64,000 nucleotides of DNA from Pirellulales bacterium (GTDB lineage Bacteria; Planctomycetota; Planctomycetia; Pirellulales; JALHPA01): NCBI GenBank assembly GCA_033762255.1, contig JANRLT010000066.1, forward strand, positions 1 to 64,000, given 5' to 3'. Positions 21,401-48,050 of this stretch are shown here, piece by piece. A program made the position numbers and the translations under genes. Positions within the stretch are counted from its first letter, which is position 1. Each line of letters opens with the position of its first letter. Under the pieces are notes generated by a model, which saw only the letters and a program-made list of their open reading frames with translations, was not told the origin of the DNA and searched no databases.

Positions 21401-24301
21401 GACATCATTACTGCCGATGTAATCCGAATAAACACCGTTCAGGTAATGGACCTGACCGGGAAAAGGCGCGGTCCCGATGTCCGTGCTGGTCCAGGGAAGC
21501 GGCAGGGAATTGCCATTGGTGACCACGGCCAGATCCTTTGGCGAACCTAAAATCGCGCCGCTCATGCCGCGCACGCGATACACATATTTCGTAAACAGGT
21601 TTAAGCCCGTATCGTTGTAGGTCAAGACATTGGCCGCCGGACTAGCGATGGTGGTAAAGTTGACTCCATCGGTCGAGCGTTCCAGTCGATACCCGGTCTC
21701 GCCCGTCAAATCCGACCAGTTCAGCGTGACCGAGGTTGTGGTCTTGGCGGAACTGGTAAAGGTGGCCACCGCGGGAAGCGGGGTCTGGGTGCTAACCACG
21801 GTGGAAGTGGCAGCATCCCCCAGGGAATCCAGAGTGACGATGCGGTAATAGTAGGTTAGCGTCCCCGAGAGCCCGGTGTTGGTATAACTGGGGATTTGGG
21901 CCGCTAGGTTGGCGATGGTGCTCCAGGTGGTCCCATTTGTCGAGCGTTCGACGCGGTAGCCGGTCTCTCCCGCAACTTCCCGCCAGTCCAGGATCAGGCT
22001 GGTTGTGGTCCAGGTGGAAACGGTAAAATTGGTCACCGCCCCCGCGCGGGTAGTCGCGCTCACGACCGCACTGGGGGCGGAAACGGTCGAGTTTTCATTG
22101 GCGCGAATGCGATAAAAGTGCATTAACGCGCTGGTGCGGCCGGTATCGGTAAAGGTGGTGGTGTTGGCCGCGACCGTCCCCGCCGTGACAAAGCTGACGC
22201 CGTCGGTCGAACGCTCGATGGTGTAGCCGGTTTCGCCGGCGCCGTTGGTCCAGCTGAGGCTAACGCTGGTGCTGGTGATGCCGGTCACGGTCAAACCCGT
22301 GGGGGCGGCCAAGGCGTTGAGCGTGGGGAGCGTGTTGGCGTCGCTAATGTTGCCGGTCATGGCCACATCGGTAAAGGTCGCATGGTTGGTCAGGCGATCC
22401 TCATGCGCGGTGGTGGCCAGGCCGATCAGCACCGTCGAGGCCATGCTGGTGGTGTGGGTAGAGACCAGCGTCCAGGGATCGGCGGCGTTGGTTTTGACAA
22501 AGCCGGTAAACGTATTTCCCGAACGCACCAGGCGCACATATCGCTGGGTAAAGGCCCCGCCGTTAGTGGCGGAACTGCCGGAGTTTGCTCCCGCGGTGTC
22601 GCGCCAGGACATTTGCGCGCCATTCGCCGAGGATAACTGCATAAAAACATTCCTGGAATTCGCCGCGGTGGTTTCGCGGATCATAACCCCCGTTTTGGCC
22701 CAGCCATTCGTTGGATCGAGACTGGTGACGCGGGCCTCGATGGATCCATCCCCGGTCAATTTTTGAAAGGCATATTGAAACTCATCCGCCGTCCCCCAAA
22801 TGTCACTCCCCGAACCAGCCACGGTAAAGGTGCTGGTGGTCGGATTGTAATGGGAATATCCGGCGTGCCCCACGCCGCCGATATCCTGGTTGGCCCAATT
22901 GGCCGATTGGGTGGAGAGGGCGTTTGCCACCGCGATATTATAGGTTCCGACATCGCCGTAGTTTCCCGCGCTACTGACAAACGCATAATACGTTCCCGCG
23001 GGCAGGGTCACCGTGACGGTCTGGTTATTAAAGACAGGACTGTTGCCTATGGCCAATAAGGCGTTGGCGGCATTGCGAATTTCCAGCTTGGCGTCCAAGC
23101 CGCTGGGGTAATCCATCCCCACATTGATCGTGTAATTGCCGCCGGTGGAGGTAAAGGAAAACGCATCCACGTCGGCCAGGCGCTCGATGATCCCGCTTTT
23201 GATCTGGTAACCGCCGCTGCTAGTTAGCGCGCTGGCGGTGGCAATCGTCCCGCCATAATCATCCGCGCGATAACCATCCCCGCCATAATTATCCAAATCA
23301 GCAGCGATCACCGCCAAATCATCCTGCAGGGTGCTGGGGGAGCCAGACGGGTGTCCCAGCCACCATTTCTTGACCAATCCCGCGTAATCCACACCCATGA
23401 TCGCGCCGTGATAATCGTCCTGCGCGCCGCGATATTCGGCTACTTTCTGGGCATTAGCGTCATAAGTGGATTGATGCGACAAGCCAAAGTTATGCCCCAC
23501 TTCATGAGCGATGCCCGATTGCCGCGTTCGCGCGTCGCCGCTTTGGTTAAATGATTCGACCTCACTGTTGGGAAAAACATTGACGTAACTATAGCCGCCG
23601 CTGATATTGTTTCCCGAAATGTGCCAAGCCTTGGGCCGCGCTGCGGTATAGACGGTGGTCACGTTCACATTGAACATGGCGAAATAGTTGGAAATATGCC
23701 GCCAGGCCTCGGCAATTTCCTTTTGTTCGTTAACGCTAAAGGTCGCCGGGTTGCCATCGGTGTCATAGGCGGTCGTGGCACTGCCGGTATCCCCGTCAAA
23801 GTCCAGATAAATATCCGCCGGGGCGCTGGCAAAGCTGTTTAAAATGGGCAGGCCAGCCGCGGTGACGGCATAGGTAATCGGAACGCCCAGCCATTGAAAC
23901 CCGCCAAAGCCCGCGCTTTGTCCTTCGGGGGGTTCATCATGATCATGCCCGGCATGATTCTGAGGACCGGCCAAACAGGTGGTTAATTCACATGAACTAA
24001 TTACCGTGGAAGAGCCTTCCACCGTGGCGTCCTTTAACCAGGTGTTGGGAATCTCGCGGGGGGCATAATTGGCGATGGTAGAGTTAGCAACGTTGCCGTT
24101 GACAGAGAGCGACTCTAATTCGACATTTCCCGCGTGCTCCGCGCATAGGGCAATCCGCGGTTCTAATAACTCACACAACGCCAAGCGGGAGCGCCGCAGT
24201 TGATTCTGCTGACCGCGGGACGATTTGTCCCGTTGACCGCGAGCAGACTTTCGTGTAGTGCCAAAAAATGAATGCAGTTGCTTGATGTTCCGCCAACTCA
24301 T
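18401..24301 (-). CDS. Giant LEPR / metzincin / fibronectin / cadherin-like surface protein with dockerin-like C-terminus
   Basis: A 1966-residue protein. The N-terminus is basic with the planctomycete motif LEPRIAL at residues 46-52 in place of a classical signal peptide. A metzincin-type zinc protease site, HEVGHNFGLSH (residues 266-276), is followed by a Met-turn GAIMGVDY. Next come a pre-peptidase-like beta domain (SFTSTGGNYTINVGMDYPSG), two concanavalin-like domains (GWAKTGVMIRETT and AWAKAGVMIRSTT), fibronectin type III units (TGYTIERSTDGVSF, TGYRVERSTNGTTW) and four to five cadherin-like units (NEDTSLLGNVLTNDIDVNGN, ATGSDSFTFKITDD). The end has a dockerin-like pair (GDMNLDGQVNGGDYVVID, DSDFDGMVTTSDYVAID). 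About 200 residues there match the end of the 1800-residue protein, but there is no PEP-CTERM tail. It is likely a secreted protease/adhesin. Confidence 0.88.
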   Translation of the reverse strand: MSWRNIKQLHSFFGTTRKSARGQRDKSSRGQQNQLRRSRLALCELLEPRIALCAEHAGNVELESLSVNGNVANSTIANYAPREIPNTWLKDATVEGSSTVISSCELTTCLAGPQNHAGHDHDEPPEGQSAGFGGFQWLGVPITYAVTAAGLPILNSFASAPADIYLDFDGDTGSATTAYDTDGNPATFSVNEQKEIAEAWRHISNYFAMFNVNVTTVYTAARPKAWHISGNNISGGYSYVNVFPNSEVESFNQSGDARTRQSGIAHEVGHNFGLSHQSTYDANAQKVAEYRGAQDDYHGAIMGVDYAGLVKKWWLGHPSGSPSTLQDDLAVIAADLDNYGGDGYRADDYGGTIATASALTSSGGYQIKSGIIERLADVDAFSFTSTGGNYTINVGMDYPSGLDAKLEIRNAANALLAIGNSPVFNNQTVTVTLPAGTYYAFVSSAGNYGDVGTYNIAVANALSTQSANWANQDIGGVGHAGYSHYNPTTSTFTVAGSGSDIWGTADEFQYAFQKLTGDGSIEARVTSLDPTNGWAKTGVMIRETTAANSRNVFMQLSSANGAQMSWRDTAGANSGSSATNGGAFTQRYVRLVRSGNTFTGFVKTNAADPWTLVSTHTTSMASTVLIGLATTAHEDRLTNHATFTDVAMTGNISDANTLPTLNALAAPTGLTVTGITSTSVSLSWTNGAGETGYTIERSTDGVSFVTAGTVAANTTTFTDTGRTSALMHFYRIRANENSTVSAPSAVVSATTRAGAVTNFTVSTWTTTSLILDWREVAGETGYRVERSTNGTTWSTIANLAAQIPSYTNTGLSGTLTYYYRIVTLDSLGDAATSTVVSTQTPLPAVATFTSSAKTTTSVTLNWSDLTGETGYRLERSTDGVNFTTIASPAANVLTYNDTGLNLFTKYVYRVRGMSGAILGSPKDLAVVTNGNSLPLPWTSTDIGTAPFPGQVHYLNGVYSDYIGSNDVWGTTDNFRFTRLTVSGDVSIIARVDNVENVAAWAKAGVMIRSTTGINSQYAFALISGDSGAAFQYRTTTGGNANGTTVAGITDPQWVRLTRVGNVFTAFYSPDGTTWTQMGTSQTIAMGTTVQVGLAHTSNNGSATNPGRADFSNVRIVNPNVPAGANPESFTINEDTSLLGNVLTNDIDVNGNTLTATLNAQPTKGDVTLNANGSFTYIPDANATGTDTFTYFAFDGTANSAPGVVTINITPINDAPQANNRTLTVAEDGEFNGILTGSDPDSIDLTYSVVGQGTKGFFTVVNPASGSFRYTPFANATGSDSFTFKITDDLNAVSNTATVSVTITPVNDPPVANNQSIAPTEDTVFNGMLTGSDIDSATLTYAVVDQGTLGTVVVVDPATGAFTYTPLPDAAGPDSFTFQITDDEGGLSTVATVTVNISPINDSPVANDGVLTTDYETPFNGALTGNDVDSSSLTYAIVAQGTKGTVNITDPATGAYTYTPLPGESGGDSFTFQITDSANATSNIATITVTINPNTTLAPNLDFDNGLITFTGRAGVANTLSLALINAGAEYQLTDNAQVIILTNAAMAAGWTGGGTNTVTGPAGTVASLTIATGDNPDTVTLGPLGHGLTVTGGGDAGDTLVFNGLLSVVGGNLQASGFDTISQNLGATLDVGPTGTINLSAASGIILRDNLTAAATTLNPGDGTSAVSIDGVVALAGPLTLAGSKNVLVNAEKTLTVAGLRANNLTLDPGTEATPTRLVVQPDGGATGLVVVAGVLTLGNNSTLDLNDNDLVLFYDPLGTNPLATITAAVDQFFAGGTGVPVIGSTTVQDSGGTRVLVPVDNAIANFGDIAAPFYDLILGDSGAGTGFNQIIVRFTYPGDMNLDGQVNGGDYVVIDANLGLATPGGVGGWILGDSDFDGMVTTSDYVAIDSNLNAGVGNPLSLGEILASLGDDVSDFNGELLLSDNSLATDQAAGLLWHTPQATNSRQRLSKSAREQFFASNMILE

Positions 24302-25903: not shown

Positions 25904-28900
25904 ATGCCACGGGAACTTTTAACACCCGGAACCAAAAGATTATCTTGTCTAACCGGGATTTTGCAGAAATATGCAGTTCCAAGCTGGCGTATATATCTGG
26001 GCTGGCTTATTAATCTGGGCAGGCGGGTTAGCCTAGCCATGGTCGCGGTTGGAATTTTCTATTTCGTAGGTGGCTTTCCACTCTGTGTGGCCCAAGACGT
26101 GGTGCTTACCGAAGGAGCCACTGCTGATGGCAAGGTGATGATAACGCCTGGCAGCGATGTACCCATAGCGGTTACCGCCGAAGCAACCAAAGCCCCCGAA
26201 AACCCTGGCGAGTCAAAACCAGAAGAGGACAAAGAAAAGGGTAAAGAAGGGGAGAAACCAAAACCAGGAGACAAAAGCGCCGCCGACCAGGTGGAATTTA
26301 AAATACTGACCCGGGGAGATGTCAAACCACGGGAAAAGCCGGATGCCAAGGAGTTTGATGTCCGTCCCGATGCCGCGGGGATGGTGCAGTTCAACTTTCG
26401 CAGCCAGCCCTGGCCCGAAGTGTTGGATTGGTTGGCGACAATATCCAACATGAGTTTGGATTGGCAGGAACTGCCTGGGGATTATTTAAATCTGAGCATG
26501 ACGCGTCCCCACAGCGTGGAAACCACGCGCGATTTAATCAACCGGCATCTGTTGGCCCGCGGTTTTACCCTGTTGGAAAATGACGGCGTGTTAAGTGTGG
26601 TCAACCTCAAAAAGCTTAATCCCGCCTTTGTCCCACGGGTGGAACCTGCCGATATCCACAAGTATCAACCCCATAGCTTTATCAAAGTTTCGTTTCCATT
26701 ATCCAGTATGGTTGCGGATGACACCGTGGCCGAGCTAAAACCGCTCCTTAGCCCGCATGGCGTGCTCACCGCGCTAAAAAACACTAATCGCGTCGAAATT
26801 ATTGATACCGCGCTCAACATCCAGCAATTAAGCCAACTCCTCAAGCAAGAACAAACCCCCGCCGTTCAAGAACGCCAAGTTCGCGAGTTTACCATCCGCC
26901 ATGTCCGCGCGGCCGAACTGCGCGAGCAGGTTATGTCGCTGTTGGGCATCGAGGAAAAGAAGAAAAAAGGGGGCGCTATGACCCCGGAAGAGATGGCGAT
27001 GCAGCAACAAGAAATGCAGATGCAAATGCAGATGCAACAGCAACAGCAGCAATCCGGCGGGGCACCGCCCAAAGACAATAAACCCCAGGTGAACTTGGTG
27101 GCAAATATTCGGACCAACAGCCTGTTGGCCCACGCGCCGCCGGACAAAATGGCCATTATTGAACAAGCGGTCAAGCTGCTGGATGTGCCCAATCAAACCA
27201 GTCAAGAGATCTTGGCAAATGCGAACCGCGTCCAGGTCTATCGGCTGGCGACGCTCGATCCCGATGTGGTGGTCAAATCGCTTAACGACCTGGGGGTTTT
27301 AGAGCCGGCCACCAAGCTGCAAATCGACCAGAAAAACAAATCAATCGTGGCCTACGCCTCTATTGTCGATCATTTGACCATTAAAGCGCTCATCACCCGG
27401 TTGGATGGGAGCGGACGTAAGTTTGAGGTGATCACCCTGCGCCGCTTGCCCGCTGATTATGTGGCGGGGACGATCGACTTTATGATGGCGGGCAATAAAG
27501 GGGACGAACAACAACCTCGCCGCCGCAGCTACTTTTTTGACTACTACGGCGATAACCAAAAGGAAAACGACCAGGACAAGGACAAATTTCGCGTCGATGC
27601 CGATATCGAGCATAATCGCCTGCTGATCTGGGCGAATCCCCTGGAACTGGCGGAAGTGGAAAATCTGCTGGTTAAATTAGGCGAAATCTCCGACCGGAAT
27701 CAAATAAATTCCTCGATGCGGGTGATCAATATCCCCGCGGGTTTGGATCGTGATCAATTTTTACGTCAATTACAAAAGACCTGGCCGACGGTTTCGCCCA
27801 ACCCGTTGCAATTGCCTCAAAATGAGCCAACGATTATTCCGCGGGAGGTGGCGCCACCCCCAGCTCCCGCCCCCAAAAATGATCAGCCCTTTAATGGCAA
27901 CCCCGCATTAGAACCACTACCCACGACCTCCACGGGCAACCCCCCCAAGCCCGCCAGTTCCACTCCGTCGTCCGTTCCGGCACCGGAAGTAAACAAGACC
28001 GCCCTGGCCATCCCGTTAAAGGTGTCACCCAGCTTTACGCTCGTGGGAAATGACCGCCCCGCCGTTGCGGCTGAATCCAGCACTTCAGAAGCTTCTGCCC
28101 AGAGCGATGGATCGTTGTCGCCACATGCCAGTGAGGCGGCGGTATCGGTCGCCAACCGCGCGGATGCGTCTTCTTTGCCGCAGATCGCCACGCCACCGGT
28201 CAAGCTTATCTGGGGTTACGATAATCAACTGCTGATTAGCTCCACCGATCCCGCAGCCTTGGATTTGCTCGAAGATTTGATGCTGGACTTGGCTCCTCCC
28301 CGCCCCGACTACAAAATTTTTCAATTGCGGTATGCCAGCTCGTTCTGGGTGGCAAAAAATTTGCAGGATTACTTTAGTGAAAAAGAAGACGACAAGAATA
28401 ATAACGTCCGGCGGGTCTATTTTTATGACAGCGAGGAAAACAAAAAAACCGAGGCCCAGCGCCGCCTGTCCAAACGCCGTCCACTTAAATTTATTGATGA
28501 CCTGGATACCAACACCATTTTGGTCAGCGGCGCCGACCCTGGACAACTGCGGATTATTGAGGAGCTAATCAAAGCCTATGACAAGCCCGATCCGGTGAAT
28601 TCCCAATCCGCCCGCGTCACCACCACCATCCGCCTCCAATACGCCAAGGCGCAAATCGTGGGGGACGCCGTCAAGGATGTTTACCGTGATTTGCTGAGCT
28701 CCAATGACAAGGCCCTCCAAAACGGCGGTGGCCAACAAGAAACCAAACGCCCCCCCGGTGACACCTACATTTTTAACGAGGGGGGAGAAGGGAGTGGCGA
28801 GGAAAAGCGGACCCAAGTGAGCTTTAAGGGGAAACTGTCGATCGGCATCGACGAGTATTCCAATACGCTGCTCATTTCGACGGAGGGGGAAAACCTGATG

Positions 28901-29179
28901 AATGCCGTGCTCAAACTGATCAATTCCCTGGATGAGGCGGCTAAACCGATGCAAACCAGCATGCGCGTCGTCCAGTTAGGCAAGGGAATGGACACCGACG
29001 CCGCCCGACTGGCCCTGATGCGGGCGATTCAGGGTAACAATCCCCGTCGCAACTTTGGCGATAATGAGGAAAACGGGTCTAACCCGGGGGATAATCAAAA
29101 TCGCGGCCGCAATGGCCGACCGGACCAAAACCAAAATCAGCAAAATCAGGGAAATTGGGGTAATGGTGAGGATCGATAA
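25904..29179 (+). CDS. Secretin N-domain protein 1 (no secretin barrel)
   Basis: A 1091-residue exported protein built from secretin N-type modules. ATG 25904 has GGGAAGAGG just before it; an internal ATG at 26039 would give a shorter signal peptide (VAVGIFYFVGGFPLCVAQD). After an acidic/Lys linker, residues about 160-245 look like an N0/STN domain (FNFRSQPWPEVLDWLATISN). Then come repeated NolW-type modules of about 70-90 residues, each ending in a strand such as NSLLAHAPPDKMAIIEQAV, NRLLIWANPLELAEVENLL or NTILVSGADPGQLRIIEELI. One module has an insert of Gln and Met repeats (about 365-385). A Pro/Ser linker splits the protein near 645-765. The C-terminus is Asn/Gln-rich. The beta-barrel domain found in GspD or PulD is absent. 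It may form or extend periplasmic rings around the true secretin encoded downstream. Confidence 0.82.
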   Translation: MPRELLTPGTKRLSCLTGILQKYAVPSWRIYLGWLINLGRRVSLAMVAVGIFYFVGGFPLCVAQDVVLTEGATADGKVMITPGSDVPIAVTAEATKAPENPGESKPEEDKEKGKEGEKPKPGDKSAADQVEFKILTRGDVKPREKPDAKEFDVRPDAAGMVQFNFRSQPWPEVLDWLATISNMSLDWQELPGDYLNLSMTRPHSVETTRDLINRHLLARGFTLLENDGVLSVVNLKKLNPAFVPRVEPADIHKYQPHSFIKVSFPLSSMVADDTVAELKPLLSPHGVLTALKNTNRVEIIDTALNIQQLSQLLKQEQTPAVQERQVREFTIRHVRAAELREQVMSLLGIEEKKKKGGAMTPEEMAMQQQEMQMQMQMQQQQQQSGGAPPKDNKPQVNLVANIRTNSLLAHAPPDKMAIIEQAVKLLDVPNQTSQEILANANRVQVYRLATLDPDVVVKSLNDLGVLEPATKLQIDQKNKSIVAYASIVDHLTIKALITRLDGSGRKFEVITLRRLPADYVAGTIDFMMAGNKGDEQQPRRRSYFFDYYGDNQKENDQDKDKFRVDADIEHNRLLIWANPLELAEVENLLVKLGEISDRNQINSSMRVINIPAGLDRDQFLRQLQKTWPTVSPNPLQLPQNEPTIIPREVAPPPAPAPKNDQPFNGNPALEPLPTTSTGNPPKPASSTPSSVPAPEVNKTALAIPLKVSPSFTLVGNDRPAVAAESSTSEASAQSDGSLSPHASEAAVSVANRADASSLPQIATPPVKLIWGYDNQLLISSTDPAALDLLEDLMLDLAPPRPDYKIFQLRYASSFWVAKNLQDYFSEKEDDKNNNVRRVYFYDSEENKKTEAQRRLSKRRPLKFIDDLDTNTILVSGADPGQLRIIEELIKAYDKPDPVNSQSARVTTTIRLQYAKAQIVGDAVKDVYRDLLSSNDKALQNGGGQQETKRPPGDTYIFNEGGEGSGEEKRTQVSFKGKLSIGIDEYSNTLLISTEGENLMNAVLKLINSLDEAAKPMQTSMRVVQLGKGMDTDAARLALMRAIQGNNPRRNFGDNEENGSNPGDNQNRGRNGRPDQNQNQQNQGNWGNGEDR

Positions 29180-29551
29180 TTTTCGTGCTAGCGAGTGTAA
29201 ATGCGCATGCGTGATAAAAACTGATTGGATTGTGATTTTAAATTGTTTTGGTATATAGGTTTATGGTGTTTTTTGCCATTTAGGCTAAGTGCCTACTTTC
29301 CTAAACGTTATACGGCACATAAGTTGCCCCTGAAAAATTCAGGAATGTCTAGATTTCCGGAACTTATTACAATTTCTGGGGTTATACAAATAATTCCCAG
29401 GGAATTACCCTGGCTGGAATTTCAGCTTTTGTGATTTTGGCGGGAAATTGCAATTTAGCAATTAGAATACAAGCTTGCCGCATCTAGGAAATTGTGCGGT
29501 GCATCAGCTTTGATGATGAATCCTCTTGGATACTCAATACGGATTTTGTAC
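29180..29551. other. Intergenic region with small hairpins
   Basis: About 370 AT-rich bases between secretin-N proteins 1 and 2. Small inverted repeats: CCTGAAAAATTCAGG around 29329 and CCAGGG-AATTA-CCCTGG around 29397. No T-tract terminator is seen. A separate promoter for protein 2 may lie here. Confidence 0.4.
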
Positions 29552-32500
29552 ATGAAGAATAACTTGTTTTTGCCACGAATTTCTCACAGCTTAGTAAATA
29601 TGTGGCTATCGGACCGCTTTTATAGTGGAAAAATTGCAATTTACGCCCTTTATTCCCTTTGCTGCGTTTTGGCTCTGACGGTTGGCACGAGCGGTTTCGC
29701 CGCGGACGCCACTTTCGTGGGCCGGTTGGCGACGGTTGTCCAGCCCGAAGTAGCCCAGCGGTTAAAGCTGAGCGACGAGGTGCGGGCCAAGTTGACGCAA
29801 ATCATTAATGAGCGTGAAGATGCGGTGCAAGAGACTGTCCTTTTAATCCGCAATCTACCCGCCGCCGAACGCGAGGCCCGCCTGGCCCCTTTTCGCGCTG
29901 AATCAGAAAAGCTGGGCTTGGCATTGCTGACGCCCGAACAGCTGGCCATGTTGGATCAGGCGGAATTGGATTTGCGGGGACCCGCCGCCTGGGCCGATCC
30001 CCAGATAGCCGCGCTCCTCAAGTTCACGCCAGAGCAATCGGCACAAATCGAGGCGTTATTAAATGAGCTAAAGGCAACTGGCGGGTCGGTCGGTTCCACC
30101 GCTGCGCAGTCCGCGGTGCGGATCGAATTTGACCGTAAATTGCTGGCATTATTGACCAAAGAGCAGCGGTCCACCTGGGATAAAATGTCTGGCAACGGCG
30201 GGGGAGAAATCCCGCAGAATGCTTCAACCCCGGCTGAGGCGGCCAGTCCCCCCGTAGCTGCGACGAATGCAACGCCGGCGACGAGTCCCGCCAATTCCCC
30301 CATGCCCATGGAATCGAGCGCATCGCCAGGCACGGCGGATAGCCAGAACCTTGCGGGTGAGAGCGCGGCGGGCGACTCAAGCGAAATTAACCCGGGCCGC
30401 AATCGTCGTTTTAATGACCGTGGTCGCGGTCGGGACGATGGCGTGGCACCACCGGAAAATGCCATTGCCCGGGGAGAGAAGCTGCGGTTCAGCTTTCGCT
30501 TTACCCCATGGAAGGATGTGATTGAGTGGTTCGCGGGCCAGGCCGATCTTTCGCTGGTCTCGGATGTTTATCCTCCCGGCACGTTCAATTACCAAGACAC
30601 CAAGTATTATAGTCCGACCGAGGCGTTGGAATTGCTGAACGGCATTTTACAAACCAAGGGTTACGCGCTGTTGCGGCGCGAACGGATGCTCATGGTGATC
30701 AATTTGCAGGATGGCATTCCGCAAAATTTGGTCCCGTTTGTCGATGCCAAGGAATTGGAACAGCGCGCAAATTCCGAGATGGTCAGTACGGTATTTCGGC
30801 TGGAGCGCCTTACCGCCGATGAGGCTTCCAATGAGATCAAGCTGCTCCTAGGCCCGCAAGGCTCGGTCATCAATTTTCCCAAGGCGCGGATGATCTCGGT
30901 CACGGACACCGTGGGCCGGTTAAAAACCATCAGGAGTGTCTTGGATCGCGTGGAAAACCCGGCGGAATTGACGAATGAATCCATTCAGCAACTCCAGCTT
31001 AGCCACTCGGGCGCAAATGAAGCCCTGGCCATGGTCAAGCAGCTATTGAATATTCCCGCTGACCGCAGTTCCAATGCGGATGGCTCGATTCGGCTCCTGG
31101 CCAATCCCGCCGCGAAAACACTGGTTGTCAGCGGCCGGCCCGATGGCATCGCCAAGGTAAAAGAAATTTTGCAGGTGGTTGATCAACCGGGGAATGGCTT
31201 GGGGGGAATAGACGGTTCTCCCCAGCTAGAAATTTACGCCACTGGCTCCGCCGACGGCGAAGCCCTCTTGCGCGTGCTGCAAACGTTGCTCTCGACCTCG
31301 CCGGATGTCCGGCTAGAGATCAATCCGCAAAACGGCAATTTGATCGCCCTGGCCCGTCCCGCCGAGCATGCCACTATTCGGGCCACACTGGACCAAATGC
31401 AAAAGGATTCCCGCAAGATCGAGGTTATCAAACTGCGGATGGTTGATCCCATCGTGGCCAAGGACACTATTGCCCGCTTGTACGAGGGGGCCAGCGGCGG
31501 GAGCGCGCCCTTGATCGAAGCGGAGGGTAATTCCCGGCAACTGATCGTCCGCGCTACCGATGGACAGTTGGCCCAAATCAAGGAAATGCTCAATCAAATG
31601 GGCGAAGGGGATGTCACCGACTCCACCCTGGCCACCGAGGAAAAGCTAAACAATGTGCGGCTAGTCCAGGTGAATCCGCGGATGATCGGCAGCGTGCTGG
31701 GCAAGGTTGAGCAAGTTTGGCCCGCCTTGCACAAAAACCGCATCCGGGTGATCACGCCCGCGAATTCCAGTTTGCCCGCCGGGTCCAGTACGATATACGC
31801 GGGAAGCGGTATCCAGGAACGCCGCGTCTGGCCGTCGGATCCCGCCCCAAGTTCCTCCCCCGGCACAACCCCTTCTCCGTCCGCCGAAAATCCCCAGCGC
31901 ACGCCGAATATCGCCAATCCGCCGGCGGAAACCGCGCCCGATCCCCGTTTACCGCGCTCTCCGCGCGAACCCAGTGTTCCTGGCCCCATCCGCACTGAGA
32001 CCGATTTAAAGCCGACACAATTTCGCGCGACCCCCCAACCGGCGTCGCAACCCTCCGAACAGCGTGGCAACCCCACGGCATTTCAATACGAGGCTCCACG
32101 TTATGAGGCGCCCTCGCTCGTAACAGTCCGGCGGCATCATCCCCCCGCCCAGGTATCTAATTTACCCCGTGCATCCCGCATTTACACAGTGGCACAACTG
32201 TCGACTACGGCCCCCTCTGATCCCGCGGCCAACCCCACGGATCGACCCTTGGACGGTGATCCAGGCCGATCGGCGGAAGATGCGGCGTCCCCGGATCCCA
32301 GCGAACCCCCTCCGGTGATTGTCTCGGTTGGTCCGGCGGGCATCATGATTACTTGCGATGATAAGCAAGCCCTGGATGATTTTGAATCACTCTTAAAGAG
32401 CATGGCCGGACCACAAACGGCCAACCAGCGCGAATTTACAATTTTTTACCTCAAATATGCCAAGGCGCAAGTCACCTCGGAATTGCTGGAGCAGATTTTT

Positions 32501-33514
32501 GCCACGGGAGGATCCTCCTCAAGTGGCGGCGGGGGGGGGCTGTTGGGTAATATAGCCGGCGCCGCCCTGGGGGGCTTTGGCGGGGGGTTGATGGGTGATC
32601 TGATGGGTTTTGGCGGAGGGGGCGGGGATAGCTCACCCACGCTCAAGGCCAGCGGCACGATTTCGATGATTCCGGACGCGCGGCTGAATGCATTGATTGT
32701 TCAGGCAAATCCCACGGACATCGATATGATCGAGCAACTGTTAAAAATCATCGATCAAGAAAGCAGTCCCGAGGAAGTGCAAATTGTTTCCCGTCCTCGC
32801 TTAATCGCCGTGTATTATACCTCCGCCAGCAGCATGGCTGATATTATTCGGGCCCAGTACTCCGACCGGATCACCAGTACGGGGGGGCAACCCCGCCAGC
32901 CTTCGCCCGAGGAGTTCATCCAGGCGTTGCGCGGAGGAAACAATCGCCGCAATAATAACCAGCGGCGGGCCGAGGAAACCTCCAAGATTTCCATCGGTGT
33001 CGATGCGCGGACAAATTCACTCATCGTCACCGCGCCCGAGCCGATTTTTCAAGAGATTAAGGAACTGGTCGCGCAGCTTGACCAAGAAGATAACGGTTCA
33101 AAGGAAGCGATGGCGCTGGTTAGCCTAAAAGGGTATAACTCGCAGACGGTTCAGCAGGCCTTGACCCAAATCATTGGCAGCGAGAACGTCATGACCAACC
33201 AAACCGCCCGTAATACCAACCGCAATAACACGGGCACCGGCGGTGGCGGCAATCAGGGTGGGAACGACTTTCAGCGGCAAGTCCAATTCATGCAGGGGCT
33301 GCAAGGTTTTCAAGGTGGGGGCGGTCGAGGATTTCCCGGCGGCGGTGGCGGCTTTCCCGGCGGCGGTGGCGGCTTCCCCGGTGGGGGTGGCGGCTTTCCT
33401 GGCGGCGGTGGCGGCTTTCCTGGTGGTGGTGGGGGTCGGGGCTTTCCTGGCGGCGGTGGAGGTTTTCCCGGTGGCGGTGGTTTTCCCGGTGGCGGGGGTG
33501 GCCGCGGACGCTAG
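29552..33514 (+). CDS. Secretin N-domain protein 2 with Gly-rich tail (no secretin barrel)
   Basis: About 1320 residues from ATG 29552. That start was chosen because it lies closer to the hydrophobic signal (YALYSLCCVLALTVGTSGFAA) than the first possible start at 29492. The N-terminal 200 residues form a helical region with LKLSDEVRAKLTQIINERED and LLTPEQLAMLDQAE, like periplasmic helical LTXXQ-type proteins. Then comes an N0/STN-like domain (RFSFRFTPWKDVIEWFAGQA, about residue 330 from 29492), followed by several NolW-type modules (KLRMVDPIVAKDTIARLYEG, VSLKGYNSQTVQQALTQII). A 160-residue Pro/Ser/Arg linker lies near the middle, and a final Gly-Phe-Pro repeat tail begins at 33332. The plan parallels protein 1: STN, N-modules, Pro linker, half-module (GIMITCDDKQALDDFESLL), more N-modules. 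No barrel domain. Confidence 0.82.
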   Translation: MKNNLFLPRISHSLVNMWLSDRFYSGKIAIYALYSLCCVLALTVGTSGFAADATFVGRLATVVQPEVAQRLKLSDEVRAKLTQIINEREDAVQETVLLIRNLPAAEREARLAPFRAESEKLGLALLTPEQLAMLDQAELDLRGPAAWADPQIAALLKFTPEQSAQIEALLNELKATGGSVGSTAAQSAVRIEFDRKLLALLTKEQRSTWDKMSGNGGGEIPQNASTPAEAASPPVAATNATPATSPANSPMPMESSASPGTADSQNLAGESAAGDSSEINPGRNRRFNDRGRGRDDGVAPPENAIARGEKLRFSFRFTPWKDVIEWFAGQADLSLVSDVYPPGTFNYQDTKYYSPTEALELLNGILQTKGYALLRRERMLMVINLQDGIPQNLVPFVDAKELEQRANSEMVSTVFRLERLTADEASNEIKLLLGPQGSVINFPKARMISVTDTVGRLKTIRSVLDRVENPAELTNESIQQLQLSHSGANEALAMVKQLLNIPADRSSNADGSIRLLANPAAKTLVVSGRPDGIAKVKEILQVVDQPGNGLGGIDGSPQLEIYATGSADGEALLRVLQTLLSTSPDVRLEINPQNGNLIALARPAEHATIRATLDQMQKDSRKIEVIKLRMVDPIVAKDTIARLYEGASGGSAPLIEAEGNSRQLIVRATDGQLAQIKEMLNQMGEGDVTDSTLATEEKLNNVRLVQVNPRMIGSVLGKVEQVWPALHKNRIRVITPANSSLPAGSSTIYAGSGIQERRVWPSDPAPSSSPGTTPSPSAENPQRTPNIANPPAETAPDPRLPRSPREPSVPGPIRTETDLKPTQFRATPQPASQPSEQRGNPTAFQYEAPRYEAPSLVTVRRHHPPAQVSNLPRASRIYTVAQLSTTAPSDPAANPTDRPLDGDPGRSAEDAASPDPSEPPPVIVSVGPAGIMITCDDKQALDDFESLLKSMAGPQTANQREFTIFYLKYAKAQVTSELLEQIFATGGSSSSGGGGGLLGNIAGAALGGFGGGLMGDLMGFGGGGGDSSPTLKASGTISMIPDARLNALIVQANPTDIDMIEQLLKIIDQESSPEEVQIVSRPRLIAVYYTSASSMADIIRAQYSDRITSTGGQPRQPSPEEFIQALRGGNNRRNNNQRRAEETSKISIGVDARTNSLIVTAPEPIFQEIKELVAQLDQEDNGSKEAMALVSLKGYNSQTVQQALTQIIGSENVMTNQTARNTNRNNTGTGGGGNQGGNDFQRQVQFMQGLQGFQGGGGRGFPGGGGGFPGGGGGFPGGGGGFPGGGGGFPGGGGGRGFPGGGGGFPGGGGFPGGGGGRGR
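33332..33502 (+). repeat. Tandem 21-base Gly-rich coding repeats
   Basis: The 3' end of secretin-N protein 2 repeats a 21-base unit coding for F-P-G-G-G-G-G, with variants containing Arg (GRGFPGG). About eight units follow one another. Unit copies differ at wobble positions (TTTCCCGGC versus TTTCCTGGT), so these are older duplications, not a recent expansion. The repeats may vary in number between strains. Confidence 0.9.
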
Positions 33515-33573
33515 TTATCCTGAATGCTGCTTTGCGGCTTTGTCGCACTTAAAAACCCGTTTGTCGTATTTTA

Positions 33574-33609
33574 CATGACAAACATAAATTCTTGCATGAC
33601 AGACATAAA
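33574..33609. repeat. Short direct repeats 21 bases apart upstream of gspD-like gene
   Basis: CATGACAAACATAAA (33574-33588) and CATGACAGACATAAA (33595-33609) differ at one of 15 positions and are spaced exactly 21 bases apart, two helical turns. This suggests a protein-binding pair, but it is not in the immediate promoter zone of the gene at 34116. Confidence 0.5.
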
Positions 33610-33650
33610 CACGCTGGCCTAAGTTCCTTCGGCAGTCGCTGCTCGGCAAC

Positions 33651-33787
33651 CTAGTGCTTTGTCAAATTTAAAGATTCTAGTTAGGCCAATCAGCCGCTGG
33701 GCGCTAGCTTACATTTTTTTTCCACTACAACCGTGGTCGAGCACACTACGGCTCATTCGAATATAGGAGCGGTTGTCTAAGCTCTAG
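33651..33787. mobile_element. MITE-like element, copy A (degenerate right end)
   Basis: First copy of a short inverted-repeat element. The left end is CTAGTGCTTTGTCAA. The right end is more divergent; its complement begins CTAGAGCTTAGACAA. It shares TTAAAGATTC and ATCAGCCGCTGGGCG with the copies at 43381 and 56062. It carries no gene. Confidence 0.7.
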
Positions 33788-34115
33788 CCCAGCGATTGCA
33801 TTGCAACAAACAACTGAAAAAGTTACCAAACCAAGTTGTCGTTACTGCCGCTTCAATTAAAAGCACTCTTAGTCCTAAAAAAACCGTACTCTTTTAGGGG
33901 CACTAGCATGTTGCCAGGGCCAGCCAACATGCCCATGTTAACGTATTTGCACGTCAAAGTTTGGCTAATTTCTCTCATTTACCTGATGATTTTGGTTGAC
34001 TTTTCCGATTATACCAGTGGGATAAATCCGCGCAACGGAACTATCCCGCCAGCCATTGCCGCTTGGCAGGGCTAAGTTGAATGTGCATCGTTTCGCCAAA
34101 GGATGAGGGATACGC

Positions 34116-37100
34116 ATGTTACAGCGCGTGACGGAACACCGACAATTTGCAATAAAATTGTTCATGGGCGTAGCTTGCAGCATCATGGGCTGCATGGTGG
34201 CGTATCGCTTGACGGCGCAGGGGGTGGTCGCACCGCTGACTCCCGCCGCCGAGCTACCGGCTCCCGCCCCTGCCGCCGTAGAGCAACCTATCTTGCAGGC
34301 CTATCCTGTGGGGACCGGGGATCCGCAAGCCATCATCCAAAAAATACAGACCCAGCTTCCCCGCGATGCGAATGTATCCTTGGCGGCGGATGTCCGGACG
34401 GGCCGGGTATTGGTGTTGGCTCCTCCGGGAACGCAACCTCTGGTAGCGCAGCTTATTGGCCAGGCTCAACCTGCTCCGGCGGCTTCCGCCGCGAATGTGG
34501 CAGGTCCCCAACTAGAAAACAATGCCGCGGCAAATCCCGCGGTTGACCCCGCTCCGGGGGTGGCCAGTGCGCCAGCCCCGGCAAATTCCCCTGCGGCGGA
34601 TTTTGGTCCCCGCAGCGAACAAGTGATCAAGCTGCAGCATTTGTCCGGGGCAGAATTTGAGCAAGCCTTGATCACGTTGGTCGCGCGGCAGTTGCCCGTT
34701 TCGACCGATCCCACGAATTCCGTGGCAACCTACACCCTCAGCGGTCGCGGCGGCAATCCCACGCTGGTCAGCGTCAATCGCACTACCGGTCAATTGACTA
34801 TCGCGGGCGCGGATAAGCTGGTGCAGGCCTGGGGGAGGGTTTTTACGGCGCTCGACCGACCCGCGCAGGCCGCTGGCAAGGACGACTCGCGGGTTGTCCC
34901 CATTCGCAATCCCGACGCCCTGGCCAATGGCAGCCTGCAGCGGGCGATGTCGATCATTAGCGAGCAAGTCGCCAATGGGGACCGCGCCGCGCCGCAGGCC
35001 AATCGCTTTGTCAGCATGTTGTTTCAACCGAAGGAACAGCCCGCCGCTAATCCGGCAAATCCCAACAATTCTCCGGATCCCAACGATCCCAACGCCGCAA
35101 ACCCCGCGGCAAACGCCCAAAACCCGGCCAATCCCACCCCGGCCCTGCAGAACCCATTCGCCCAGCCAAATGCCAATCCCGCCACGGCGGAAAATCCCGA
35201 TGACGACCTGAGTTCGGGGTTGATTGGTCCTGTGCGGATTGAATTTATTGAGGGTCTGGATTTGCTGGTCATCACGGGAAATCCGCGCGACGTGGAACGC
35301 GTGCAGCGGATCATTGCCGAAATCGAGGAGCGCAGCAAAGAGACGATCCCCGTGGTTGTGCTGCATCCGCTTAAATTTGTTAGTAGCGACGCCATGGCCA
35401 CCTTGGTCCGTTCGCTATATGACCAGGTGCTTAGCCCGCGGGCCGGGCGGGTCAGTATCACTTCCCTGGTAAAGCCCAACTCGCTCTTATTGATTGGCCG
35501 CAAGGAAAGCATCGAGGAGGTTGTCAAGCTGATCGAAAAGCTGGACCAGCCGGTCGAGCCGAACACCCAGTTCAAGGTTTTTGAGTTAAAGCACACCGCC
35601 GCCACCGAGGTACTGCAAACGGTGCAGTCCTTCTTGGGGGGGACGGCCACCGGCCCGGGGGCCGCGGGACAAACGGGCCAACCCGCCACGACGGCGTCGA
35701 TCACGGGGACCGGGCTGGGAACGCGGGCGGTAGTGACAGCGGATTACCGGACCAACGCGCTGATCGTGCGGGCCAGTCTGCGCGACCTGGAAGAAATCGA
35801 AGCCCTCATCAAGCGGATTGACGTGCAAAGCAGCTCCGCCATCAACGAAGTGCGGGTTTTTAACCTCAAATATTCACTGGCGGAGGAATTGGCCCCCGTG
35901 TTGCAGACGGCGATTAACGGACAGCAGACGCAAAATCGCACACAGCAAAACCAGGGAGGCAATCAAAATCAAGGAGGGGGCAATCCCTTTCAGCAGTTCC
36001 AGCAACAGCCCGGTGGTCAAAACCAGCAAGGAAACCAACAGCAGCAGCGCGCGATTCGTAGCACCATGCTGCAATTCTTTACCATCGATGACGAAGGGAA
36101 GAAACAGCTCAAGTCGGGAATCCTGACCGACGTGCGGATCGTGGCTGACGGACGGAATAATTCATTGCTGGTCACGGCTCCGGCGGAAAGCATGGAACTG
36201 ATTCAAGCCCTGATCAAGGAACTGGATCAGGTCCCCACCGCCGAGGCCCAGATCAAGGTGTTTCAAATTGAAAACGGGGACGCTACCGCCCTGGTGACGA
36301 TGCTGCAAAATTTGTTTGGCATCCAGGCGACCAACACCCAGCGGGGCGGGGCCGCGTTTAATTTTGCCCAAAACACGGGAGACACCTCGGGGGATAATCC
36401 GCTGGTCAATTTGCGATTTTCGGTCGATCAGCGAACCAATAGCATCATCGCCACGGGATCGTCCGGCGATTTGAACGTGGTCGAGGCGATCTTGCTCCGC
36501 CTGGACGAAAGCGACATTCGCCAGCGCAAAAGCACGGTCTATCGGCTAAAAAACGCCCCTGCGCAGGATGTGGCCAACGCGATTACCCAACTCTTGAATA
36601 GCGAACGGCAACTGACCCAGCAGGTCGGGGCAAACCTGGTCAGCGCATTTGAACAAATCGAACGCGAAGTGGTCGTCGTCCCCGAACCGGTCAGCAATAG
36701 CCTGATCATTAGCGCTACCCCGCGTTACTTTGACGAGGTCAAACGGATTGTCGAGGAAATCGACCAGCGTCCCCCCATGGTCATGATTCAGGTCATGATC
36801 GCCGAAGTCGACCTGAACAACTACGACGAATTCGGCGTCGAGGTAGGCGTGCAAGATTCGGTCCTGTTTGACCGGAGCCTGCTGGGAGATCTGGTTACGA
36901 CCACCACGACCACCACGTTTGGCAATCCCGCCACCACGGTCCAGCAGCAAAATGTGTTGGCCGCGACGAATGCCCCCGGCTTTGCTTTTAACAACCAGCA
37001 ACTGGGTAATAGCGGTAGTTCCCAGGCGATCGGCAAATCCTCCACGGTCGGCACGCAGGGTCTTACGAGCTTTAACGTGGGCCGGGTGAATAACGAATTG

Positions 37101-38318
37101 GGTTTTGGCGGGTTGGTGTTATCCGCCAGCAGCGAAAGCCTGAGCTTTCTCTTGCGGGCACTCAGTCAAAAGCGCCGGGTCGAGGTCCTCAGCCGACCGC
37201 AAATCATGACGCTGGATAACCAAGAAGCCTATATCCAGGTTGGGCAGCGCGTCCCCCGGATCAACGCGGTCAACGTGGCCGTCACCGGTCAGCAGACCAA
37301 CTCGATCACTCTGGAAAACGTCGGTCTGATCATGCGGGTGCTCCCCCGGATTAGTCCCGATGGGTTGATTGTGATGTCCATCGCCGCGGAAAAATCCGAA
37401 CTTGGCCCCGAAGCGGACGGCATTCCGATCTTTATTGACAACGCCGGTCAGGTCGTCCGTTCGCCCCGGATCAACACCATTTTGGCGGAAACGGTGGTCA
37501 GCGCGGCGAATGCCCAAACGGTGATCCTCGGGGGGTTGATTGTCAAGAACAAGCAGCAATTCAGCCGCCGGGCCCCGTTCCTGAGCGATATTCCGATCCT
37601 GGGACATTTGTTCCGTTACGATAGCAACATCATGCGGCGGTCGGAGCTATTAATTATCCTGACCCCGCGGGTGGTTCGCACCCAGGCTGATGCCGAACTG
37701 ATCAAGCAGGTCGAAGCGTCGCGCATGAGCTGGTGTCTGGCGGATGTGATCCGCATCAATGGGCCATCGGGACTGCGGGGCCGTAAAGACGAATGGCTAG
37801 ATGCCGAAACCGTGGTGGTCTATCCCGATCTTAACCCCCATGGCGAAAACCAGGTTCTGTTCCCCGACGAATTTTCCCCCGGAGTCATGGGGGGGGAGAC
37901 ACTGCCGCCGGGGGCGGTGCTTAGCCCGGGCAGCGCAGCGGGCGCGGGATCTCCAACCTTGGCACCCGGAACGGTCGTAACGCCCGGGACGGAGTTCGCC
38001 CCCGGAACGATCATTGCCCCTAGTCCGGTACCCGGCCCTGGCGGGGTGATTCTACCGGGTGGAACGCCAGCCGGTGGAAATGGAGTTCAACCACCGACAA
38101 ATGTGCCGCCGCCGGCTCCGGTGCCGGGCGTTCCCCTACCTAACGGGGGAACCTCCCCGACGACACCCCGGGGTACGGGAGTCGTCATCCCGGCTGGTAA
38201 CCCCGCAACTGCCGAATCGAACGGGGCAAAAACCACGACGGCGACGCCGGATGTGCCAGACCCCGCGGGGGAAAAATCCACCGCCAAAAAAGGACTGTTA
38301 CAACTTTGGACACGCTAA
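34116..38318 (+). CDS. gspD: GspD-like secretin with expanded N-domain array
   Basis: A 1400-residue outer-membrane secretin of the type II secretion kind, roughly twice the usual 650-700 residues. GAGGG 9 bases before ATG 34116 supports the start. The N-terminus has a hydrophobic export segment (LFMGVACSIMGCMVAYRL). About seven N-modules follow, for example VRIVADGRNNSLLVTAPAES and FSVDQRTNSIIATGSSGDL, with Gln/Asn-rich spacers. The secretin barrel spans about residues 885-1185: IQVMIAEVDLNNYDEFGVEV, VLSRPQIMTLDNQEAYIQVG, RTRVVSANAQ-like TVILGGLIV, SDIPILGHLFRYD and LLIILTPRVVRT. The last 200 residues are Pro/Gly repeats of the kind PGT-V-PGT. It is the third of three secretin-N genes and the only one able to form the channel. 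No gspE/F genes are in the window. Confidence 0.9.
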   Translation: MLQRVTEHRQFAIKLFMGVACSIMGCMVAYRLTAQGVVAPLTPAAELPAPAPAAVEQPILQAYPVGTGDPQAIIQKIQTQLPRDANVSLAADVRTGRVLVLAPPGTQPLVAQLIGQAQPAPAASAANVAGPQLENNAAANPAVDPAPGVASAPAPANSPAADFGPRSEQVIKLQHLSGAEFEQALITLVARQLPVSTDPTNSVATYTLSGRGGNPTLVSVNRTTGQLTIAGADKLVQAWGRVFTALDRPAQAAGKDDSRVVPIRNPDALANGSLQRAMSIISEQVANGDRAAPQANRFVSMLFQPKEQPAANPANPNNSPDPNDPNAANPAANAQNPANPTPALQNPFAQPNANPATAENPDDDLSSGLIGPVRIEFIEGLDLLVITGNPRDVERVQRIIAEIEERSKETIPVVVLHPLKFVSSDAMATLVRSLYDQVLSPRAGRVSITSLVKPNSLLLIGRKESIEEVVKLIEKLDQPVEPNTQFKVFELKHTAATEVLQTVQSFLGGTATGPGAAGQTGQPATTASITGTGLGTRAVVTADYRTNALIVRASLRDLEEIEALIKRIDVQSSSAINEVRVFNLKYSLAEELAPVLQTAINGQQTQNRTQQNQGGNQNQGGGNPFQQFQQQPGGQNQQGNQQQQRAIRSTMLQFFTIDDEGKKQLKSGILTDVRIVADGRNNSLLVTAPAESMELIQALIKELDQVPTAEAQIKVFQIENGDATALVTMLQNLFGIQATNTQRGGAAFNFAQNTGDTSGDNPLVNLRFSVDQRTNSIIATGSSGDLNVVEAILLRLDESDIRQRKSTVYRLKNAPAQDVANAITQLLNSERQLTQQVGANLVSAFEQIEREVVVVPEPVSNSLIISATPRYFDEVKRIVEEIDQRPPMVMIQVMIAEVDLNNYDEFGVEVGVQDSVLFDRSLLGDLVTTTTTTTFGNPATTVQQQNVLAATNAPGFAFNNQQLGNSGSSQAIGKSSTVGTQGLTSFNVGRVNNELGFGGLVLSASSESLSFLLRALSQKRRVEVLSRPQIMTLDNQEAYIQVGQRVPRINAVNVAVTGQQTNSITLENVGLIMRVLPRISPDGLIVMSIAAEKSELGPEADGIPIFIDNAGQVVRSPRINTILAETVVSAANAQTVILGGLIVKNKQQFSRRAPFLSDIPILGHLFRYDSNIMRRSELLIILTPRVVRTQADAELIKQVEASRMSWCLADVIRINGPSGLRGRKDEWLDAETVVVYPDLNPHGENQVLFPDEFSPGVMGGETLPPGAVLSPGSAAGAGSPTLAPGTVVTPGTEFAPGTIIAPSPVPGPGGVILPGGTPAGGNGVQPPTNVPPPAPVPGVPLPNGGTSPTTPRGTGVVIPAGNPATAESNGAKTTTATPDVPDPAGEKSTAKKGLLQLWTR

Positions 38319-38415: not shown

Positions 38416-39927
38416 ATGAAGACGCAACATTTTTTTCGCCTGGGCGTGATGCTGGCTTGGGTGGGCTTTTTGGCTGGCACAACCGGCTGCAGTTCGTTTG
38501 ACCTGAGCAAACGAATTCCTTGGGGCGATAGCGATGGCACCCCCCCCATGCGGATCATGGCCGTTTGGACGGATACGATCATGAATTCCCCCGACAAGCC
38601 CGCCATGCGCGGCTTTGGCGGGCGGGTGATGTTTTATGCCCAGGGGGAAGACCCGATCAAGACCTCGGGCACGATGATTGTGTACGCGTTTGACGAAACG
38701 AATCGCGAACCGACCAATGTCACCCCCGACCGCAAGTATGTGTTTCGTAGCGAGGAATTTGCCAAACACTATAGCAAAGGAAGGTTGGGGCACTCGTATA
38801 GCTTTTGGCTGCCGTGGGACGAAGTGGGAGGACTGCAAAAGGAAATTAGCCTGATCGTGCGCTTTATGCCGGACAAGGGGGGCGTCATCGTGGCCGAGCA
38901 GACCAAGCATTTACTCCCGGGGGTCACGGCGGAATTGGCAAAAATTCAGCAGCAAGCTAAGCAAAATCAGTTAGCCCGGATGGCGGCTGGCAATCAATCC
39001 TCTCCCGCCATGCAAAACTGGCCCGGACAACCCGCGCTCATGGGCCAAGCTGGGGTCATGGGCCAACCAGGAGCTATGGGCCAACCCGGCCAGTTACCGC
39101 AATCCGGCACCCCCGGAATGGCCGCTCCTCCGGGACATGATCCGGCAATGCTGCAACCCGCGTATTATGCCCCGGGAACAAACAATCCCGCGTCAAATTA
39201 TGCAACACCAGCCAATTATTTGAGTCCGGCGGGCAATTATTTTGGCCCGCCAAATCCGCAACCACAACCCGTGCAGAACTTGCCGGGTACTCCCGCCGCA
39301 AACATGAAAAAATCACAGACTATGACGATTCCCCTGCGGGGCCAACATTCGTCGCTGGTGCATGTGCCTCAACAGTTAACACAAAATACGGTTGGGCAAT
39401 CAACCGCCGGGAACGCCGCTGGATATGGAGTCAACCCAGGGAATGCGATAGCTACCTACAATCAAACGATTTCCCAGGCCAATCCGATGCAAGGGACCGT
39501 CCAGGGTTATCCCGTGCAAAATAGTACAGCGTTTCAGGCCGGAGGGACGGCGGCCACCAATGTGATTTATGGCGGTAGCGGCACGGCGATGCAAAACAGT
39601 TGGCAAGAATTGGGGGGTCAGCAGGCTCTTACCCCGATGCAGCAGCGAATGCTACAAGCGCAGATGGCCCAGCAAACCGGGGGAGCGGCTTTTCAGCAGC
39701 AATACACGCCTCAAGTCCCCATGAACGGTCCCATGACCCCGCAACCCACGCTGAGCAAGTTCCCGGCGGGGGGAATTCCCCAGAATGGTCAAACTGCTAA
39801 CGGACAGGGGGAACAGGAACCTCCTCCGGCAGGGTCAGGTCATTTTGGACTTTGGAAACGCCGGGTTCCAGGAGGCACAATCTCTCGGCTAAGTCCCGCT
39901 GGCGCTGGTCTTTCACAACGCCCGTGA
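38416..39927 (+). CDS. Lipoprotein with Gln/Pro/Gly-rich C-terminal half
   Basis: A 503-residue protein starting with a lipoprotein signal (LAWVGFLAGTTGCSSFD). The folded part, residues about 30-175, contains RIMAVWTDTIMNSPDKPAMRG, FGGRVMFYAQG and WLPWDEVGGLQKEISLIVRF. It resembles a conserved planctomycete family of unknown function. Then the sequence becomes low complexity, rich in Gln, Pro, Gly, Asn and Met (GQPGAMGQPGQL). Ninety-seven bases separate it from the secretin gene, on the same strand, so a role as an accessory or pilotin-like lipoprotein of the secretin complex is plausible but not shown. The last 43 codons overlap the convergent BON-domain gene. A shift to less typical residues there (LWKRRVPGGTISRLSPAGAG) suggests these codons may be constrained by the opposite gene. 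Confidence 0.78.
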   Translation: MKTQHFFRLGVMLAWVGFLAGTTGCSSFDLSKRIPWGDSDGTPPMRIMAVWTDTIMNSPDKPAMRGFGGRVMFYAQGEDPIKTSGTMIVYAFDETNREPTNVTPDRKYVFRSEEFAKHYSKGRLGHSYSFWLPWDEVGGLQKEISLIVRFMPDKGGVIVAEQTKHLLPGVTAELAKIQQQAKQNQLARMAAGNQSSPAMQNWPGQPALMGQAGVMGQPGAMGQPGQLPQSGTPGMAAPPGHDPAMLQPAYYAPGTNNPASNYATPANYLSPAGNYFGPPNPQPQPVQNLPGTPAANMKKSQTMTIPLRGQHSSLVHVPQQLTQNTVGQSTAGNAAGYGVNPGNAIATYNQTISQANPMQGTVQGYPVQNSTAFQAGGTAATNVIYGGSGTAMQNSWQELGGQQALTPMQQRMLQAQMAQQTGGAAFQQQYTPQVPMNGPMTPQPTLSKFPAGGIPQNGQTANGQGEQEPPPAGSGHFGLWKRRVPGGTISRLSPAGAGLSQRP

Positions 39928-40591
39928 GGATCGCGGTGCGGCCATCCATTTGCACCTGAATATCGCCGCTTAGCCGTGAGAGCGACTTCGTTCGATTCAG
40001 ACGCGTCGAAAGTGTAGTTGTTAGGACCTCGGGCTGGGGAGAAGCGAATTCAAATTGAACGGTGCGGATGGCCCGCACGGTTTTTTTAGACCGGGCGTTT
40101 CCCTGGTTCCCTTGGTTCTGTTGATTCCCTTGATTCATATTGTTCTGCCGGGCCATTCCCTGAAAAGCCGCTTGCTGGGCACCAACCACCGAGCCAAAGA
40201 AATTGGCAAAATCTCCGGAATCCGCCCCCACAAATTGCCGCTGCTGTCCCTGGCGATTCTGGCCTAGGCCCCCATTTTGGCCAAACTGACCCTGTTGCTG
40301 ATTCAGGCCACCTCGTTGAGTTCCGCCAAAGGTGTTATTTGCCCCCCCGGTGCTGCTAGAACCCAAGCTGCGGTTGCCAAAGGCTCCGGATGTTGATCGG
40401 CCCGAACTGGAACCCCCCAGGCCGCTGCTGCCACCGATGCCGCTACTTCCTATGCCGCCACCGCCTATACCACTGCTGCCGATCCCCGACGCACCCCCCC
40501 CGTTGATTGTTCCCCCACTAAATTGAGCAAAGGCCAAATTGTGGAAAGCGAACAGGCCCAGCAGTAGCGAAAGTCGTAGGCAGGTTTGCAT
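39797..40591 (-). CDS. BON-domain protein with Gly/Ser-rich N-terminus
   Basis: About 264 residues from ATG 40591 (MQTCLRLSLLLGLFAF, a signal peptide ending near AFAQF). The next 130 residues are Gly/Ser/Asn/Gln repeats (SGIGSSGIGGGGIGSS). The C-terminal 60 residues form a BON domain: RLSGDIQVQMDGRTAILTGV, then LAERLCLLEPGVSKVQNDL. BON domains occur in periplasmic or outer-membrane proteins (OsmY-like) and bind membranes, and occur in secretin proteins too. The gene converges on the lipoprotein gene and overlaps its 3' end by 131 bases. TTG 40609 is the upstream alternative start. The N-terminal composition matches the low-complexity tails of the neighbouring secretin proteins, hinting at a common complex. 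Confidence 0.8.
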   Translation of the reverse strand: MQTCLRLSLLLGLFAFHNLAFAQFSGGTINGGGASGIGSSGIGGGGIGSSGIGGSSGLGGSSSGRSTSGAFGNRSLGSSSTGGANNTFGGTQRGGLNQQQGQFGQNGGLGQNRQGQQRQFVGADSGDFANFFGSVVGAQQAAFQGMARQNNMNQGNQQNQGNQGNARSKKTVRAIRTVQFEFASPQPEVLTTTLSTRLNRTKSLSRLSGDIQVQMDGRTAILTGVVKDQRQRDLAERLCLLEPGVSKVQNDLTLPEEVPVPPVR

Positions 40592-47940: not shown

Positions 47941-48000
47941 ACAATGATGAATGAAGAATGAAGAATTTTGTGTGTTCCAAATTTTATATGTGACTAGGTG

Positions 48001-48047
48001 TTTCCCTGTTCCCCGTTCCCTGTTCCCTCCCCCCTATCCCCTACCCT
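48001..48047. repeat. Pyrimidine-rich repeat between prkA and yeaH
   Basis: Degenerate units of TTCCCTGTTCCC and TTCCCCG followed by CCCCTATCCCC, on the plus strand directly before the yeaH start codon. No Shine-Dalgarno can be recognised in it. Its effect on yeaH expression, if any, is unknown. Confidence 0.6.
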
Positions 48048-48050
48048 GCC

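Follow-up and report, generated by a model that had tools for sequence, protein, structure and literature searches.

The second and third of three consecutive giant genes (p1, p2 and p3) in this planctomycete DNA probably encode, between them, a single outsized GspD, the secretin of a type II secretion system (T2SS), whose ring stack would be made from two polypeptides placed in line. The window, by which we mean the whole 64,000-nucleotide stretch analyzed, comes from contig C66 of a 5.47-Mb assembly that is 97% complete. DNA identity of G242 and G230 with named loci shows its order to be Pirellulales, to which Blastopirellula marina DSM 3645 and Thermoguttaceae also belong. The three genes occupy the same strand (Table 1), and their products of 1091, 1320 and 1400 amino acids agree with the sizes of about 1090, 1320 and 1400 codons given in an earlier note on this DNA. 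Gaps of 372 bp between p1 and p2 and of 601 bp between p2 and p3 make the trio no obvious tight operon, and consensus scans for promoters and terminators that would define a single operon over all three genes gave scores no better than those of shuffled sequences.

Pfam finds six Secretin_N stretches in p1 (E=5.9e-37), six in p2 (E=3.4e-47) and eight in p3 (E=9.8e-79), and matches the secretin channel domain PF00263 in p3 only. The same note had described NolW-type modules in all three proteins and a channel in the third alone, and both observations hold. Such an array is not the local norm, since two other secretins of this genome carry only two and one Secretin_N stretches. The genome also has, outside any secretion operon, an orphan gene (contig C30; L128:8909-12520, minus strand) whose product of 1203 aa matches the secretin domain but not Secretin_N. 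In AlphaFold models, p1 and p2 together add 14 N1-type modules and two N0 domains, which brings the trio to 22 N1-type modules and two N0 domains; the former estimate of at least ten extra modules was too low. A lack of NolW-like folds in p1 and p2 had been named as grounds for giving up the idea, and the opposite was found, as both models contain N-domain folds like those of GspD.

Table 1. Positions of the secretin-related genes, their domains and other genes in the window
Feature	Position	Strand	Description
Surface-type protein	10522-15924	-	giant, 1800 aa
Surface-type protein	18401-24301	-	giant, 1966 aa; metalloprotease-like motif, Ig/FN3-like repeats
p1	25904-29179	+	1091 aa; hydrophobic N-terminus, low-complexity stretch, N0 (residues ~160-234), seven N-modules (~259-1012), low-complexity tail
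p2	29552-33514	+	1320 aa from ATG; helical N-terminal domain, N0, seven N-modules, Gly-rich tail
p2 helical N-terminal domain	29702-30196	+	all-helical in model; distant LTXXQ/Spy-type likeness
p2 N0	30491-30703	+	model residues 264-334; GspD N0 (4jtm) Z 11.5, rmsd 2.5 over 80 residues
p2 seven N-modules	30779-33088	+	AlphaFold model
p2 module-5 insert	~31763-32290	+	long, disordered, Pro-rich (AlphaFold model)
p3	34116-38318	+	1400 aa; GspD-type secretin; eight N-modules, then outer-membrane channel domain
p3 N-module array	34299-36776	+	Secretin_N placements (Pfam)
p3 channel domain PF00263	37158-37679	+	residues 1015-1188; E=3.2e-41 / 9.6e-43
p4	38416-39927	+	lipoprotein; follows p3
BON-like protein	39797-40609	-	Gly-rich, secreted; overlaps the end of p4
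p5	40997-42826	+	609 aa; also downstream of p4 in G234, G238 and G121
PrkA kinase, DUF444, SpoVR cluster	45892-50830	+	downstream of the secretin genes

The assignment of p3 to GspD rests on its C-terminal PF00263 domain together with a score of 369.3 bits against the NCBIfam GspD equivalog TIGR02517, above the cut-off of 351.35. No N0/STN match was found in p3 by Pfam; its first module scores as Secretin_N, and the N0 domain sits on p2. The other two proteins have no channel domain of their own, lacking PF00263 and reaching only 109 bits (p1) and 139 bits (p2) with TIGR02517. Their models predict an N0 fold followed by N1-type modules in each, the arrangement expected of secretin N-domain proteins, and the best PDB matches of both are the N-domains of GspD, PulD and XcpQ.

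For p2, a profile comparison with GspD N1-N2 gives E=1.3e-13, and the structural matches listed from the PDB stop short of the helical domain and the later modules. Model pTM is low (0.34), so that the placement of the modules relative to one another is not predicted. A TTG at 29492, upstream of the ATG, is a possible alternative start and would lengthen p2 to 1340 aa. The helical domain distantly resembles an LTXXQ protein encoded on contig C12 of the same genome (BLAST E=1e-6), which itself matches PF07813 at 3.2e-9. The gene for this LTXXQ/Spy-type protein (L121:18779-19675, minus strand) immediately precedes GspE, and such a gene adjoins GspE in several genomes. In p1, the model comprises N0 and seven beta-alpha-beta-beta-alpha modules, with pLDDT of about 90 in most of them, from an alignment that was thinner and built on p2 paralogues; its N0 superimposes on that of GspD (4jtm) with Z 12.6 and rmsd 1.9 over 79 residues. 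The layout common to p1 and p2, with module 5 split by a long disordered insert in both, makes them architectural twins, at about 20-25% identity.

What the earlier interpretation overlooked is that p2 and p3 are T2SS operon genes. In relatives, p2 stands first and p3 last in a full operon, p2-GspE-F-G-H-I-J-K-L-M-p3, which is followed by the gene for the lipoprotein p4; we read this order in G234 (L096/L097), G048 (L098/L099) and G238 (L100/L101), and in some relatives an LTXXQ protein is encoded between p2 and GspE. A GspE of matching subtype lies within 6 kb downstream of p2 at 25 of the 51 named loci that have room for it. Even in a member of the phylum outside the class (G186), a channel-less N-module protein of 2117 aa with ten Secretin_N stretches (L265:498-8754) directly precedes GspE (61% identity) and GspF.

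In the genome of the window, the GspE-M core is found on contig C12 without an adjoining secretin. It matches T2SSE, T2SSF, T2SSG and T2SSK, and weakly GspH, GspL/PilM and PilO/GspM; the assignments of GspL, GspM, I and J depend on weak matches or on synteny. A T2SS is thus represented by GspE, GspF, pseudopilins including GspK, and GspL/M, components that are linked to p2 and p3 in relatives, and a prepilin peptidase is also present. A search for GspC (PF11356) gave no Pfam match in this 97%-complete genome, and a divergent GspC is possible. The window retains both flanks of the operon, p2 on one side and p3-p4-p5 on the other, as neighbors, and the simplest reading is that the GspE-M core moved out from between them. 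An orphan GspE-M operon would have to be served by a secretin, and the genome offers no other than p3 of the matching type, which counts for p2 and p3 as the secretin of this machine.

The p4 gene follows p3 at every p3 locus read in relatives (G234, G048, G238, G121, G167, G230, G024 and G205), and its product is a candidate pilotin or assembly factor; p5 shows where the ancestral T2SS locus had its 3' flank. Secreted Gly-rich proteins similar in type to the BON-like protein of the window adjoin p4 in G048, G024 and G167. Like the window, G121 has a PrkA-like gene (L104:17791) beyond p3-p4-p5 on the downstream side.

Across the 59 genomes of the class, p2, p3 and a high-identity GspE subtype occur in identical sets, being present in 42 and absent from 17. 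The absences comprise one family of 14 genomes and three genomes of three other families; because they are spread over four families they do not all represent one event, although ancestry still confounds the co-occurrence count. In 13 of the 42 genomes, a single open frame of 2135-3270 aa contains matches to both p2 and p3, with p2 preceding p3. In the G225 fusion, for example, residues 315-686 and 1048-1211 of p2 match residues 146-557 and 784-938, and residues 648-1216 of p3 match residues 1451-2008. The largest secretins we saw are single chains of 3269-3270 aa inside T2SS operons (L108:8748-18554 in G205; L264:566-10375 in G208), with 24 and 21 Secretin_N stretches, respectively, and one channel domain each. 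In a tree of channel domains the fused forms do not group together but make up two clades. One of these clades adjoins a split secretin (support 85/96), and the topology suggests, at moderate support for that branch, repeated fusion or fission of p2 and p3.

The existence of long fused chains could be taken to mean that a single secretin gene has decayed, or been misassembled, into the pieces p1 and p2. We find this scarcely credible, as both frames are intact and begin with hydrophobic N-termini, other genera and families have full-length orthologues at 36-53% identity, and the position of p2 in the operon is conserved. A more serious alternative, which we still consider unlikely, is that p2 (and p1) make rings of their own, which encircle p3 or stand next to it, or else act at the inner membrane as an adaptor ring, taking the place of GspC and recruiting substrate. 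Such a role would accommodate the failure of Pfam to find GspC, the hydrophobic N-termini borne by p2 and p3 each, and the presence in p2 of N0-N3 in GspD order plus an additional helical domain. The fusions, however, place p2 directly N-terminal to p3, which favors in-line stacking with equal copy number.

We therefore prefer the split GspD. From predicted folds, module counts, operon membership, co-occurrence and colinear fusions we infer a hetero-oligomer of p2 and p3, as well as its copy number, serial stacking, tube length and export of substrate; p1, too, would form rings. In GspD the N-domains stack as rings in the periplasm, underneath the channel, with N0 touching the platform of the inner membrane (PMC8134430). 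By analogy, p3 would supply the channel domain in the outer membrane with eight N-module rings below it, and p2, placed in line under p3 because of homology and the colinear fusions, would form the end proximal to the inner membrane, with GspD-like N0-N1-N2-N3 and four further N-modules. The periplasmic neck would then have N0 plus seven plus eight modules, which makes about 16 layers of rings where four are usual, and would be long enough for a wide planctomycete periplasm. Substrates would be driven through this channel by the GspE-F-G-H-I-J-K-L-M machine encoded on C12. Both the fusions of p2 with p3 and the T2SS context agree with the proposal made for the trio, that stacked rings may reach further across the envelope; as a whole, the earlier interpretation is supported in part. 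Speaking against a split GspD are the lack of linkage of p1 elsewhere, the missing Pfam match for GspC, and the location of p2 and p3 here, with 601 bp between them and the core operon elsewhere. As for what might be exported, the two giant surface-type proteins encoded upstream of p1 are possible substrates.

The part of the original proposal that failed is the trio as a conserved unit. Of the named loci, 54 extend 4.5 kb or more upstream of p2, and at none of them is p1 found beside p2. Among the genomes compared the three genes are side by side only in that of the window; in the only other genome of the same family in this comparison p1 is cut by a contig end, which makes adjacency unreadable there. 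We read the p1 locus in ten relatives: in each, p1 is away from p2/p3 and the T2SS operon, and these loci have no T2SS neighbor in common, so a conserved three-gene cassette was rejected. Orthologues of p1 occur in 14 of the 42 genomes with p2 and p3 and in none of those without them. On weak evidence, p1 is a paralogous ring protein that probably adds or substitutes a ring segment; it may also be a regulatory one. In five Pirellulales (L102 of G121, L247 of G220, L248 of G238, L250 of G223 and L251 of G217), a divergent anti-sigma-like gene and a gene resembling those for sigma factors flank p1 and, as read from sequence, may regulate it.

Neck length differs widely among genera, as illustrated by a p2-type protein without a channel in G152 that has 2701 aa and ten Secretin_N stretches (L270:5774-13876). 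It is quite possible, if still short of probable, that these genomes encode the longest secretin known: a hetero-oligomeric T2SS secretin of at least 16 stacked rings (24 with p1, and at least 20 in single-chain forms), with the channel and the neck on proteins that can be separated, so that its length can be changed by fusion, fission or exchange of ring segments such as p1. In Thermus thermophilus, PilQ likewise has extra N-rings, six in number, that span most of a wide periplasm, but it is one chain, serves the type IV pilus and DNA uptake, and has far fewer rings (PMC5745081). The planctomycete periplasm can be greatly enlarged (PMC5394234), and given the Thermus precedent a longer tube would be a sensible adaptation. 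The long neck, whether split over two or three proteins or fused, suggests that the tube serves to span a cell envelope of unusual width.

Planctomycete crateriform structures touch the cytoplasmic membrane, and some bear pili-like fibers (PMC5394234). The trio might be part of this surface complex, instead of or besides being a secretion channel, since craters join the outer and cytoplasmic membranes and bear fibers (PMC5394234), and a very long secretin would bridge both membranes too. This seems very unlikely to us: our data hold no link to craters, the operon is that of a T2SS with short pseudopilins, the genome has several other secretins, and the system is missing from one entire family of the class.

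The proteins resemble GspD (PulD, XcpQ; TIGR02517) in the folds of N0 and the N-modules, in the C-terminal channel and in T2SS operon context. They differ in that GspD carries N0-N3 on one chain, whereas the planctomycete form has about 16 modules on two chains or, when fused, one chain that can reach 3,270 aa. To our knowledge, neck domains on separate proteins are otherwise known only from mitochondrial T2SS relics. There, GspD is accompanied by separate GspDN1-3, so that N-domains are likewise encoded apart from the secretin domain, and contact between GspD and GspDN1 in yeast two-hybrid assays is reported (PMC8134430). The mitochondrial proteins have single or half N-domains and have lost N0 (PMC8134430), whereas those of planctomycetes are large multi-module arrays that keep N0. 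In the open literature on planctomycete secretins and T2SS we found no description of this arrangement; subscription papers were outside that search, so its absence is unproven. Nor did the literature searched contain this combination of features: large N0 arrays that lack a channel, genes belonging to a T2SS operon, and fusion into chains of about 3,270 residues.

If the split GspD is real, many planctomycetes could use it as the channel for exporting folded proteins through an enlargeable periplasm. It would then be a molecular ruler whose setting can be read off the length of the genes, and would show that bacteria, too, can supply the neck domains of a secretin on separate proteins. It would also provide defined genes for testing the nature of planctomycete surface complexes. 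Gene tests of this kind are feasible in Planctopirus limnophila, where three PilQ-like genes have been singly deleted with viability kept (PMC11958385).
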